In this document: one piece after another, positions 14,391-17,363 of the stretch
Position numbering within the stretch: position 1 is the stretch's first letter
Layout: each line of letters begins with the position of its first letter
DNA from: Pseudarthrobacter chlorophenolicus A6
Lineage (GTDB): Bacteria > Actinomycetota > Actinomycetes > Actinomycetales > Micrococcaceae
Length of the DNA stretch: 64,000 bases
Reading direction: 5' to 3'
Assembly: GCF_000022025.1 (NCBI RefSeq)
Contig: NC_011879.1
Span: 362,859 to 426,858 of the forward strand
Notes under the pieces: model-generated
What the model was told of the DNA's origin: nothing
The model's database searches: none
What the model saw: only the letters and a program-made list of their open reading frames with translations
Translations under genes and position numbers: made by a program

Positions 14391-17363
14391 ATGAACACGG
14401 CATTGACCCAGCGTCCGAATGACGGAGCTCTTCCTGCTGCGCCCGCGGAACGCCACATCCCGGCAGCAGATGACTACCCTGGCCTGTACGCATGGCAGCA
14501 AGAGGCCATGGACCGGTGGCGTGCCGCCGGCCGCCGCGGGGTCATCGAGGCGGTCACCGGGGCAGGCAAGACGCGGGTCGGCATCGCCTCCGCCTTCGAA
14601 GCAGTGCGGCGCGGATTCAAGGTCTTGGTTCTCGTCCCCACCGCAGAGCTGCAGATCCAGTGGCTCCAGGCCCTGGCCAGGGACCTCCCGGGGGCGCGGC
14701 GTGGGGCGTTGGGCGACAACCGCCATGACAGCCTGGACACCGTGGACGTCCTCGTCGCGATCGTTCATTCCGCGGCAACGCGCCAAACCCTCCGGGACCA
14801 CAAGGCCGGGCTGATCATCGCGGACGAATGCCACCGATACGCAGCCCCGATGTTCGCAGAAGCCCTGGAAACCGGCTACACCTGGCGTCTGGGCCTGTCC
14901 GCCACCTATGAACGCACCGACGGTGAACACCTCGTCCGGCTCGCACCTTTCTTCGGCGACATCGTCTTCAGGCTCTGGTACGACAGGGCGCTGGCAGAGA
15001 AGATCATCGCCCCTTTCGACGTCGCCATGGTCGGTGTTGAACTCACCCCGTCAGAGCGCGACGAATACGATGCGTTTACGGAGACGATGGCCAAAGCCAC
15101 CGGCCCGCTTGAGATCTACCTGCACATGCCTAGGAACCCGTTCGCGCCGTTCATTGCCGCAGTCGCGCACCTGGCAGACAGCAAAATCGACTCCCCGGGC
15201 CCGGCCCTGGCCCGCAAATACATGGCCGCGATGACCGGCCGGCAGAACCTGCTGGCGGAGACACCGACCAAGCGCATGGCCCTGGCAGCCCTGAACCGTG
15301 CAATCACCGCCGCCGGACCGACCCTGGTGTTCACCCAGACGAAGAAATCCGCTCTGTCTGCTGCGCAGGTCTGCGCTGCGATGGGCAACCCCGCCACCAC
15401 GGTGATGTCGGGCATGAGCCGCGACCAGCGTGCCGCGGCGCTGGGCAGCTTCCGGGACGGGAACGCCAAAGTCCTCACCGCACCGCGGGTACTGGACGAG
15501 GGCATCGACGTTCCCGAGGCCGATCTGGGCATCATGGTCGCCGCCAGCAGCAGCCAGCGCCAACTCGTCCAGCGTCTCGGCCGGGTCATCCGGAAGAAGA
15601 TTGACGGCCGGGCCGGGCGCTTTGTCGTCCTCTACTCCAGGCACACTGTGGAGGACCCCGCGGTCCGGGGCGACGAGTACCTTGGCGCCGTCCTGCCCTT
15701 TGCCCGCAGGCAGGAAACGTTCCGGATTGAGACCGATGTGGAGGCTGTTGAGGCGTTCCTCGCCTACACAGAACATGAAACTAAAGTGCCGGAGGTCCCT
15801 GAGGTGCCCCAAGCTCCTGCGGTTGAACCGCCTGCCGCCCCGTTCGTCCTCGAACGCGACGACAGTGACTGGTCCGAAGCGCCCGTCCTTGAAGGCAGCA
15901 TCGGCGACGACGTGCGGCTCTATCTCGAACAGGCCAGCTCCTTCGACTTGTTGACCCATGAGGAGGTCACAGATCTGGGGATGGCAATCGAAGCCGGACT
16001 GTACGCTGAGCACCTGCTGGGCACGGCACGTCCCGAAGGGCGCCGGGCGATCCTCGAGTTGGAGTCCGTCGCGTCCGCGGGCCGCGATGCGGTGCTCAAG
16101 CTCGTGAGCTGCAACCTGCGCCTGGTCGTGTCCATCGCCAAGCGCCACACCGGCCGCGGCATGGATTTCCTCGACCTCATCCAGGAGGGCAACGCCGGGC
16201 TCTACCGCGCCGTCCAGAAGTTCGACTACACGAAGGGCTTCAAGTTCTCCACATACGCAACCTGGTGGATCCGCCAGGCCATCACCCGCGGAATCGCCGA
16301 CCAGTCACGAACAATCCGGCTCCCCGTCCACTTCCACGAGCAGGTCGTCAGCGTCTTCATCGCCGAACGGAACTTCCTCCAAAGCGAAGGACGCGACGGC
16401 ACTGCGGAGGAGATCGCTGAGGCATGCGGCAAGACCGTCGACGAGATCAACGCTGTCCGCCGCCACCGGACCCCGCCGGCCTCGCTGGACTGGGAAGTGC
16501 CCAACGGTAAGGGCGGCGTCGAGCTGCTGGGGGAGACCCTCTACGACCCCGACGAACCCACCGCGTACGACGCCGCCGTGCTGGCACAGCTGCAGTCCGC
16601 GGTGCACGGAGCCCTGGACCGGCTCTCGGAACGGGAGGCCGGTGTCCTCGCCTACAGGTTCGGACTGGCCACCGGGGAACAACTGACGCTTGATCAGATC
16701 GGCACGATCTACGGGGTGACCCGGGAACGCATCCGTCAGATCGAAGCGAAAGCGTTCGCTGCACTCCGTGAGCCAGCCGCAGCAGCACAGCTCAGGGACT
16801 TCTTCGACGGACGCAGCGATCTTGACGCCGCTGGCAGCGCAGATACATCGAAAGCTACGACCGCACCGGCCGCGAAGAAGCCGACCAAGCCCGCCAAGAA
16901 AAAGAGAAGGAAAGTGGAAGCGGGGCCTGTCGTGGAAATGCGGAAAGCCAAATGGGACCGTGCGCTGGCGAAACTCTCGGCGTTCGTAGCCCGGGAAGGC
17001 CACGCCCTGGTCCCCACCAAACACGTCGAATCCGGCCACAACCTGGGGGCTTGGATCAACACCCAGCGCAACGCGCTCCGCCTGGGCACCATCAGCCCCG
17101 AACGGCTTGCTGAGATCGACGCGATCGACATTTCGTGGCGCAAAGGCAAGATCGCCCCGTGGGAAACACAGCAGGCCGATACGGCGCGGCAGCCCGCCCC
17201 GGAACCTGAGCCGATCGAAATAGCGCCCGACAATGAGGACCCCTTCGCTGGCCCGCCGGTGGCTGCCACCATCAGCCTCATCCTGGACGAGGATCCTTTC
17301 GCTGAGTCTCCGGCAACGCCCGGCAAAACGTGCCTGTTGGACGAAGAGGACCCCTTCGCCTGA
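14391..17363 (+). CDS. XPB-like SF2 helicase fused to a complete RpoD-like sigma factor and helicase-associated domain
   Basis: 990 residues in one uninterrupted frame. Residues 1-450: SF2 helicase with Walker A GAGKT (57-61), DECH box (145-148), SAT (170-172), TLVFTQTKKS, and the arginine-finger motif QRLGRVIRKK (394-403). Residues about 505-800: sigma-70 with region 1.2, region 2 (NLRLVVSIAKRH, DLIQEGNAGLYRAVQKFD, FSTYATWWIRQAI), region 3, and region 4 with LTLDQIGTIYGVTRERIRQIE. Residues about 845-920: helicase-associated domain (WDRALAKLSAF...LGAWINTQR). The tail carries three acidic DPFA repeats and ends there. XPB opens promoters in eukaryotes, so a helicase joined to a sigma factor could be a self-contained promoter-opening factor; that role is inference. 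Confidence 0.92.
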   Translation: MNTALTQRPNDGALPAAPAERHIPAADDYPGLYAWQQEAMDRWRAAGRRGVIEAVTGAGKTRVGIASAFEAVRRGFKVLVLVPTAELQIQWLQALARDLPGARRGALGDNRHDSLDTVDVLVAIVHSAATRQTLRDHKAGLIIADECHRYAAPMFAEALETGYTWRLGLSATYERTDGEHLVRLAPFFGDIVFRLWYDRALAEKIIAPFDVAMVGVELTPSERDEYDAFTETMAKATGPLEIYLHMPRNPFAPFIAAVAHLADSKIDSPGPALARKYMAAMTGRQNLLAETPTKRMALAALNRAITAAGPTLVFTQTKKSALSAAQVCAAMGNPATTVMSGMSRDQRAAALGSFRDGNAKVLTAPRVLDEGIDVPEADLGIMVAASSSQRQLVQRLGRVIRKKIDGRAGRFVVLYSRHTVEDPAVRGDEYLGAVLPFARRQETFRIETDVEAVEAFLAYTEHETKVPEVPEVPQAPAVEPPAAPFVLERDDSDWSEAPVLEGSIGDDVRLYLEQASSFDLLTHEEVTDLGMAIEAGLYAEHLLGTARPEGRRAILELESVASAGRDAVLKLVSCNLRLVVSIAKRHTGRGMDFLDLIQEGNAGLYRAVQKFDYTKGFKFSTYATWWIRQAITRGIADQSRTIRLPVHFHEQVVSVFIAERNFLQSEGRDGTAEEIAEACGKTVDEINAVRRHRTPPASLDWEVPNGKGGVELLGETLYDPDEPTAYDAAVLAQLQSAVHGALDRLSEREAGVLAYRFGLATGEQLTLDQIGTIYGVTRERIRQIEAKAFAALREPAAAAQLRDFFDGRSDLDAAGSADTSKATTAPAAKKPTKPAKKKRRKVEAGPVVEMRKAKWDRALAKLSAFVAREGHALVPTKHVESGHNLGAWINTQRNALRLGTISPERLAEIDAIDISWRKGKIAPWETQQADTARQPAPEPEPIEIAPDNEDPFAGPPVAATISLILDEDPFAESPATPGKTCLLDEEDPFA

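Follow-up and report, generated by a model that had tools for sequence, protein, structure and literature searches.

The final 64 kb of contig C1 of Pseudarthrobacter chlorophenolicus A6 (64,000 nt; hereafter the window) encodes a 990-residue protein in which an XPB-like helicase of superfamily 2 (SF2), a complete sigma-70 factor, and a helicase-associated (HA) domain lie in one frame. This protein likely serves its replicon as a private sigma factor, paired with a promoter of its own, a two-box element that recurs ahead of genes on C1 and on related plasmids. The replicon-wide private promoter is arguably a larger feature than the fusion itself, and its very likely tie to one clade of sigma factors is a stronger result than a mechanism in which the helicase opens promoters. 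Taken as a whole, the explanation that we consider most probable is that the fusion directs the host core RNA polymerase to the private promoter with the helicase assisting.

The fusion gene is translated without an internal stop, and every Pfam domain called in it scores above its own gathering cut-off (ERCC3_RAD25_C, 31.2 versus 27 bits). The helicase motifs are intact (GAGKT, residues 57–61; DECH, residues 145–148; SAT; LDEGIDVP; QRLGRVIRK), and Walker A, DECH, SAT, LDEGIDVP, and QRLGR are invariant or nearly so among the 32 fusions compared. The closest solved helicase is archaeal XPBII (PDB 6p4f, E 1.5e-31). The sigma part aligns with SigA/HrdB from region 1.2 to region 4, and HrdB and SigA structures from Streptomyces and mycobacteria lead its PDB matches (closest, HrdB/SigA 8k60, E 1.9e-87). 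Regions 2 to 4 are called by Pfam. For region 1.2, Pfam makes a call in most close homologues though not in the window protein, where the region is recognised by its alignment with SigA. Thus the SF2 motifs, the XPB-like character, the complete RpoD-like sigma factor, and the one-frame fusion, all proposed in an earlier note on this DNA, are borne out. By its regions the protein is a group-1-like sigma-70 factor, and by its motifs and ERCC3/RAD25 lobe an XPB-like SF2 helicase.

Of 78 NCBIfam families, 25 were listed, and among these the superfamily model TIGR02937 is the only one passed (106.7 versus 42.9 bits), and the RpoD/SigA equivalog cut-off is missed (best score 346.2 versus 582 bits). 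The cut-off of TIGR04095, the Dnd phosphorothioation restriction enzyme, is missed as well (125.3 versus 600 bits). A predicted model of the fusion, built from a 32-row alignment, is too weak for the domain arrangement (mean pLDDT 66, pTM 0.38). Its low-confidence stretches are residues 463–503 and 808–850, as linkers would be, plus much of helicase lobe 1, and the 50 Foldseek matches listed are all sigma factors.

The architecture is widespread. A protein search scored 7996 candidates, and the best 120 were listed. Ten of these (P0002–P0011) are 72–82% identical to the window protein and carry the HA domain; the remaining 110 (47–57% identity) contain helicase and sigma, with the HA domain absent from their precomputed Pfam list. 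Because all of them hold domains of both parts, the joint is not an artefact, and an assembly error joining two genes at residues 450–505, which the earlier note had raised, is rejected on the strength of homologues from several sources that span it. Of 395 genomes of the family, 15 match the fusion at E ≤ 1e-150, the window's own included; the own genome and the draft genome G115 match the whole query, and in the 13 others the match stops before the HA domain. Six of the nine HA-less fusion loci fetched lie on contigs of 2.9–4.7 Mb, so these fusions are chromosomal. In named genomes, an open reading frame (ORF) test finds the fusion encoded at at least 16 of 79 loci, in genera that include Brevibacterium, Pseudoclavibacter, Tessaracoccus, Pseudarthrobacter, and Arthrobacter, and at two further loci (L221 and L224) a tblastn match runs across both helicase and sigma parts. 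Therefore, the fusion is not unique to the window.

Stand-alone relatives of the fused helicase are common in the same named-genome searches. A separate sigma gene beside them is found only at L224, in a weak test in which the ORF filter lost the helicase at 11 of 79 loci. At L224 (positions 9884–12959, Propionibacterium acidifaciens), helicase and sigma occupy separate ORFs that overlap; a frame change may have divided a former fusion there.

The earlier note had held that known bacterial sigma-70 factors carry no helicase. This does not stand: the fusions occur in several actinobacterial genera and are already in databases, stored as 'sigma-70 family RNA polymerase sigma factor' only. Its statement that no such system has been described holds to the extent that we found none in the literature searched; the architecture itself is widespread and databased. 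The note does not describe the replicon-wide promoter, although its phrase 'class B and C templates' suggests that promoter classes had been noticed. In the CC-licensed PMC literature, judged by titles and the beginnings of abstracts, we found no description of the helicase–sigma fusion, the motif, or the plasmids.

The genome consists of three contigs, C1 (426,858 bp), C2 (158,475 bp), and C3 (4,395,537 bp). C1 is likely a plasmid, because its nearest annotated relative found is the circular plasmid pYJN5-1 (W01; 440,465 bp) of Paenarthrobacter sp. YJN-5. Three further sister plasmids enter the comparison, from Pseudarthrobacter (W02; 417,721 bp), Arthrobacter caoxuetaonis (W03; 374,851 bp), and Arthrobacter sp. 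zg-Y1110 (W04; 400,603 bp).

A repeat search of the window returns short copies ending in CCGCACACAT ahead of several genes. The window holds 22 copies of CCG[CT]ACACAT (below, CCGYACACAT), and C1 holds 160, 80 on each strand (139 + 21 for the two variants). C2 (158 kb) holds none, and a 240-kb sample of the chromosome holds one. In the whole genome, 144 copies of CCGCACACAT occur, 139 on C1 and 0 on C2, which leaves five on the chromosome; the backward control occurs once. Aligned sites read C-G-G-[GT]-G-A-G, 13 nt, [GT]-CCG[CT]ACACAT, 7 nt, ATG, with G at −20 in 97% and A at −16 in 85%. The spacing GG-N2-A-N15-CCG is found at 107 of 160 sites on C1 and 91 of 139 on pYJN5-1, as against 4 and 3 sites with one base less and 0 and 1 with one base more. 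With the flanking marks made obligatory and two core mismatches permitted, the core is CCG[CT]ACACAT in 56 of 58 sites on C1, 49 of 54 on W01, 46 of 54 on W02 (400 of 418 kb covered), and 51 of 52 on W03; the same search on C2 and the chromosome sample gives no sites. The element thus has what a private sigma-70 promoter class would have: two boxes about 17 bp apart at fixed spacing, near starts, and enriched on the replicon.

The position of the element relative to genes is fixed as well. The start codon of an ORF of at least 60 codons lies exactly 7 nt past the core at 81 of 160 sites on C1 and 72 of 139 on pYJN5-1 (background 1.6% per position). Annotated genes of pYJN5-1 (224 coding sequences and 66 motifs in 150 of 440 kb) give the same picture: 54 of the 66 motifs lie at most 60 nt ahead of a same-strand coding sequence, as against 4.8% of random positions and 2 of 66 for the opposite strand. 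The distance is exactly 7 nt for 31 motifs (0.08% at random), and a further cluster of distances lies at 37–42 nt. Sorted by script, leaderless sites, with a start at 7–8 nt, number 96 on C1, 83 on W01, 75 on W02, and 58 on W03. Sites with a start at 25–64 nt behind a Shine-Dalgarno sequence, a class without a computed background, number 28, 22, 20, and 34, respectively. If transcripts start at or next to the ATG, ACACAT would fall at −10 and GKGAGN at −35, with a 17-bp spacer. We infer that the element is a promoter, mostly leaderless.

The element also keeps its place before orthologues. Among reciprocal-best pairs of mechanically called ORFs, only 48–55 ORFs per replicon being tied to a motif, the motif precedes both members versus one member in 13 versus 12 of 139 pairs for C1–W01 (Fisher p 8e-10), 12 versus 19 of 120 for C1–W02 (p 7e-6), 7 versus 11 of 90 for C1–W03 (p 1e-4), 6 versus 12 of 74 for W02–W03 (p 3e-3), and 9 versus 10 of 80 for W01–W03 (p 8e-6). 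The sigma gene itself is among the genes so preceded, with the motif directly ahead of it in five of six cases. The core begins 18 nt ahead of the fusion ATG in W01, G115, and the window; for the sigma-gene ATG of W03 and W04 the distance is 17 nt. The system would then be self-activating.

The motif follows the sigma clade. In a set of 31 genomes or records, CCGYACACAT occurs 139 times in W01, 142 in W02, 135 in W03, 143 in W04, and 147 in G115, against a background of 6–17 in 13 genomes with HA-less fusions and 4–11 in 12 genomes without a fusion match; the Rhodococcus plasmid W05 has 0. That two misjoined genes and a meaningless repeat had arisen by chance or assembly is an explanation we regard as refuted, with next to no probability left: independent homologues cross the joint, the motif reaches 135–147 copies in five other records or genomes versus 4–17 in controls, and its positions are kept before orthologues. 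The stricter two-box string GGTGAG-N14-CCGYACACAT gives 27 matches in G000, 24 in G115, 35 each in G318 and G323, 7 in G038, and 4 in G035 among the 395 family genomes; 20 others have one and 369 none, and the backward control has one match. All four genomes with at least 20 two-box sites carry a clade sigma factor on the contig of the listed sites. In G318 and G323 the sigma gene lies on C2 at the same coordinates as in W03 and W04, so these two are not independent of W03 and W04. The single sites in the 20 genomes (e.g. G377:C1:1996460) are possibly remnants or chromosomal targets.

In a midpoint-rooted tree of 56 sigma parts, the 12 HA fusions form one group (100/99), and together with the unfused sigma factors of W02–W04 and with six other fusions (P0110, P0111, and P0113–P0116) they form one set (98/92). 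This plasmid sigma set stands apart from SigA (100/100) and from most HA-less fusions. The W02 sigma factor has an HA domain, and that of W03 has no HA match. No further helicase-bearing HA-less members of the plasmid clade (P0113–P0116) are found in 396 genomes of the order, only the known G000, G009, and G123. At position 457 (Escherichia coli numbering, set by YATWW) in region 3.0, the sigma factors of all six motif replicons carry H or N, as opposed to V in 26 of the 30 others; in the wider clade (n = 21) there are 19 H, 1 N, and 1 V. The position adjoins H455 and E458, the readers of the extended −10. Because 25 columns separate the sigma sets in the same way, residue 457 is a lead only.

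The proposed scheme is as follows. The fusion sigma would lead the host core RNA polymerase to CGGKGAG-N13-KCCGYACACAT-N7-ATG, mostly leaderless. Sigma region 4 would read the GGKGAG box, and regions 2 and 3.0 would read CCGYACACAT. Transcripts would begin at or near the ATG.

Several observations weigh against this scheme. The residues of regions 2.4 (YATWWIRQ) and 4.2 (VTRERIRQ) of the window protein are as in SigA, so that sequence alone fails to explain a −10 element unlike TATAAT, and the core is unusually invariant for a −10 element. Sites in neither start class number 36 of 160 on C1, 34 on W01, 42 on W02, and 43 on W03, and 10 to 19 orthologous pairs per comparison differ in the presence of the motif. 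In W02 the sigma gene follows dut, its closest motif lies 2146 nt upstream, and its position in the tree, at the end of a long branch, is less sure. The drafts G035 and G038 have motif-dense contigs, and a clade sigma factor is not found there. In G035, the four contigs sampled belong to this plasmid family: they match 2–13 ORFs of each of the four plasmids, against 0–3 ORFs of all four together per 20-kb chromosome sample. The genome has five RpoD-like sigma factors, none on a motif contig, and the three included in the tree all group with SigA. In G038, one of three samples (L277) stands out from the same control and two are near it, and only SigA is found at E ≤ 1e-40.

The element might instead be read by another DNA-binding protein of the plasmids, possibly an activator assisting SigA, with the fusion sigma merely travelling along. 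The SigA-type reading residues, the two drafts, and an almost invariant core, which is more like a regulator's site, would all suit such a protein, and the replicons do carry other DNA-binding proteins, HA-domain proteins included. Three facts speak against it: the distances from box to box and from box to start are what a sigma-70 promoter and the start of its transcript would show; host SigA is present in the genomes searched, where the motif stays at background; and the motif lies directly before the sigma gene in all cases except W02. We therefore hold this alternative to be decidedly unlikely and retain direct recognition by the clade sigma factor.

The tie to the sigma clade does not extend to the helicase. 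That the motif is tied to the helicase is rejected: the 13 genomes with HA-less fusions are at background, and in W02–W04, where the motif is equally dense (its logo was verified for W02 and W03), no relative of the fused helicase is found at E ≤ 1e-8. This also counts against the part of the proposed scheme in which the helicase, predicted to use ATP, would help to open or clear the private promoters. Since the promoter is shared by sister plasmids that lack it, the fused helicase may, with low confidence, be described as an accessory motor at the private promoter, tethered to the holoenzyme. The earlier note's proposal that the helicase opens the promoter by ATP is thereby weakened and not supported so far, though still possible. 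In its favour are the fixed tether to sigma, the intact motor, a core unlike TATAAT, and the conservation of the HA-type fusions, whose helicases are 87–93% identical and whose sigma parts are 73–80% identical, indicating that the helicase is under strong constraint. A sigma factor whose XPB-type motor uses ATP to open GC-rich, non-TATAAT private promoters ahead of many transcription units, a bacterial counterpart of TFIIH by which a 400-kb plasmid would run a largely leaderless transcriptome with the host core polymerase, is an idea that we entertain as doubtful.

The sigma part could also serve to dock an XPB-like translocase on RNA polymerase, without promoter opening, in a factor for DNA repair or anti-phage defence. 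Helicase–nuclease genes neighbour the HA-less relatives, many of which are chromosomal. One UvrD-PDDEXK family is encoded near 8 of the 28 loci compared (two of the 8, L087 and L160, in the same genome), and AddB-like or NERD-UvrD genes lie near fewer, with domains checked on L083 only. The PADLOC matches are PbeA for the helicase part (E 1.3e-55) and MzaA for the sigma part (E 1.8e-53). As a docking module might, the sigma part of four fusions (P0104, P0105, P0112, and G272) groups with the host's SigA in the tree. The best MzaA match falls outside the helicase, though; none of the 13 HA-less-fusion genomes tested rises above the motif background, and the window protein is a member of the plasmid clade, its own gene headed by the motif. 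For the window protein we consider a docking factor unlikely and prefer a promoter-directing sigma factor. The loci with the UvrD-PDDEXK-type gene (L083, L085, L087, L089, L160, L161, L162, and L169) are possible repair or defence islands. In G272 and P0112 the helicase is 61–62% identical to that of the window; because the sigma part of these two and of P0104 and P0105 falls in the SigA set, the sigma module has apparently been replaced, and the two modules have probably been re-paired or recombined in all four.

The fusion differs from known systems in several respects. SigA and HrdB, nearly identical to it in regions 2.4 and 4.2, have neither the helicase nor the HA domain; the fusion is likely borne by a giant plasmid, and its motif is nearly absent from the chromosome. 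XPB (RAD25, ERCC3), which shares the SF2 motifs and ERCC3_RAD25_C, is the translocase of TFIIH and a separate subunit of that complex; here the motor is covalent with a bacterial sigma factor. MzaA of the MZA anti-phage system resembles it as a longer protein with a C-terminal sigma-70 part, and the sigma parts match, but the cut-off is missed (296.7 versus 800 bits) and the match is limited to residues 560–807. The AAA+ enhancer-binding proteins of sigma-54, HelD, RapA, and Mfd are ATP motors that act on RNA polymerase or promoter opening as separate proteins, whereas the window motor is built into a sigma-70 factor. T7 RNA polymerase and the yeast linear plasmids are cases in which replicons bring their own promoter specificity; in the present case the specificity would likewise be private and the host core enzyme would serve. 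No private RNA polymerase is recognised among the ten large C1 ORFs scanned.

The prevailing view, to our knowledge, is that sigma-70 promoters need no ATP-driven motor to open. An XPB-like motor built into such a sigma factor would, if confirmed, break this rule or show how a motor may be tethered to the holoenzyme for another purpose. Because sister plasmids share the promoter with and without the helicase, they form a natural comparison for the role of the motor, testable by the swap of a single protein. A family of 375–440-kb plasmids that combine a matching sigma factor with 135–160 promoters, nearly identical and for the most part leaderless, would also be a ready-made orthogonal expression system.

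Table 1 Features of the fusion gene and copies of the promoter-like element in the window.
Feature	Position	Strand	Basis or remark
Helicase–sigma fusion gene, 990 aa	14391..17363	+	Translation without internal stop
Helicase lobe 1, ResIII/DEAD, residues 32–175	14484..14915	+	Pfam; Walker A 57–61, DECH 145–148
Helicase lobe 2, Helicase_C 306–402 and ERCC3_RAD25_C 336–417	15306..15596	+	Pfam
Helicase-to-sigma linker, about residues 441–504	15711..15902	+	SigA alignment and weak model
Sigma region 1.2 with the stretch after it, residues 505–570 (approximate)	15903..16100	+	SigA alignment
Sigma region 2, Sigma70_r2, residues 571–641	16101..16313	+	Pfam
Sigma region 3, Sigma70_r3, residues 658–724	16362..16562	+	Pfam
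Sigma region 4, Sigma70_r4, residues 741–794	16611..16772	+	Pfam
HA domain, C-terminal, residues 852–913	16944..17129	+	Pfam
Promoter-like element of fusion gene (box 14352–14358; core CCGCACACAT 14373–14382)	14352..14382	+	ATG 8 nt on
Core CCGCACACAT	4935..4944	-	Motif scan
Core CCGCACACAT	5329..5338	-	Motif scan
Core CCGTACACAT	9827..9836	-	ATG 7 nt on
Core CCGCACACAT	12551..12560	-	ATG 7 nt on
Core CCGCACACAT	19817..19826	+	Motif scan
Core CCGCACACAT	25093..25102	+	Motif scan
Core CCGCACACAT	31828..31837	+	ATG 8 nt on
Core CCGCACACAT	32213..32222	+	ATG 7 nt on
Core CCGCACACAT	33045..33054	+	ATG 7 nt on
Core CCGCACACAT	34917..34926	+	Motif scan
Core CCGCACACAT	38247..38256	+	Motif scan
Core CCGCACACAT	39884..39893	+	ATG 7 nt on
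Core CCGCACACAT	42520..42529	+	ATG 7 nt on
Core CCGCACACAT	42958..42967	+	Motif scan
Core CCGCACACAT	48821..48830	+	Motif scan
Core CCGCACACAT	50004..50013	+	ATG 8 nt on
Core CCGCACACAT	50786..50795	+	Motif scan
Core CCGTACACAT	55098..55107	+	ATG 7 nt on
Core CCGCACACAT	56746..56755	+	Motif scan
Core CCGCACACAT	58715..58724	+	Motif scan
Core CCGTACACAT	63147..63156	+	About 490 nt ahead of tRNA-Arg gene 63643–63717

A phage origin was considered and gained no support in the records compared. In the 20 of 35 phage records listed, no match covers 80% of the protein and all matches fall in the sigma part; viral contigs match the helicase part only. The two-box motif occurs on nine viral contigs, as a single copy each, with no additional copies. 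The gene table of pYJN5-1, incomplete and with many hypotheticals, names no capsid, terminase, portal, or tail gene. A PHROGs scan of 10 of the 63 C1 ORFs of at least 430 aa gives DNA-metabolism, lysis, FtsK-like, and unknown families.

pYJN5-1 encodes dnaE, ssb, a replicative helicase, ligases, nrdIEF, thyA, dut, and secY/E/G, as well as umuD with a Y-family polymerase, pilus genes, and FtsK/coupling-protein genes. Its single 1819-aa dnaE lies near its fusion gene. In the window, a phage-type DnaE (5362–9567, minus strand; PHROG 405, E 1.1e-251) adjoins a second DnaE-like ORF of 752 aa (9898–12156, minus strand), which has PHP and finger domains and the NTPase domain only in part.

An array of 40 tRNA genes and a tmRNA lies at C1:27520–36918 (L014, 7520–16918), outside which the tRNA-Arg gene near the end of the window is an extra one; pYJN5-1 holds a similar array (200 of 440 kb scanned). 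Tad/Flp pilus genes (TadG-like, CpaE/MinD-like ATPase, and TadA-like ATPase) occupy window positions 18783–23208; motif copies lie close by, at 19817 and 25093. Five tandem units of 159–162 nt (25989–26770) lie within a 723-aa ORF at 25083–27254. Dispersed 229-nt repeats, 64–72% alike, stand near the starts of large ORFs at 38573–38801, 46905–47133, and 59851–60079.

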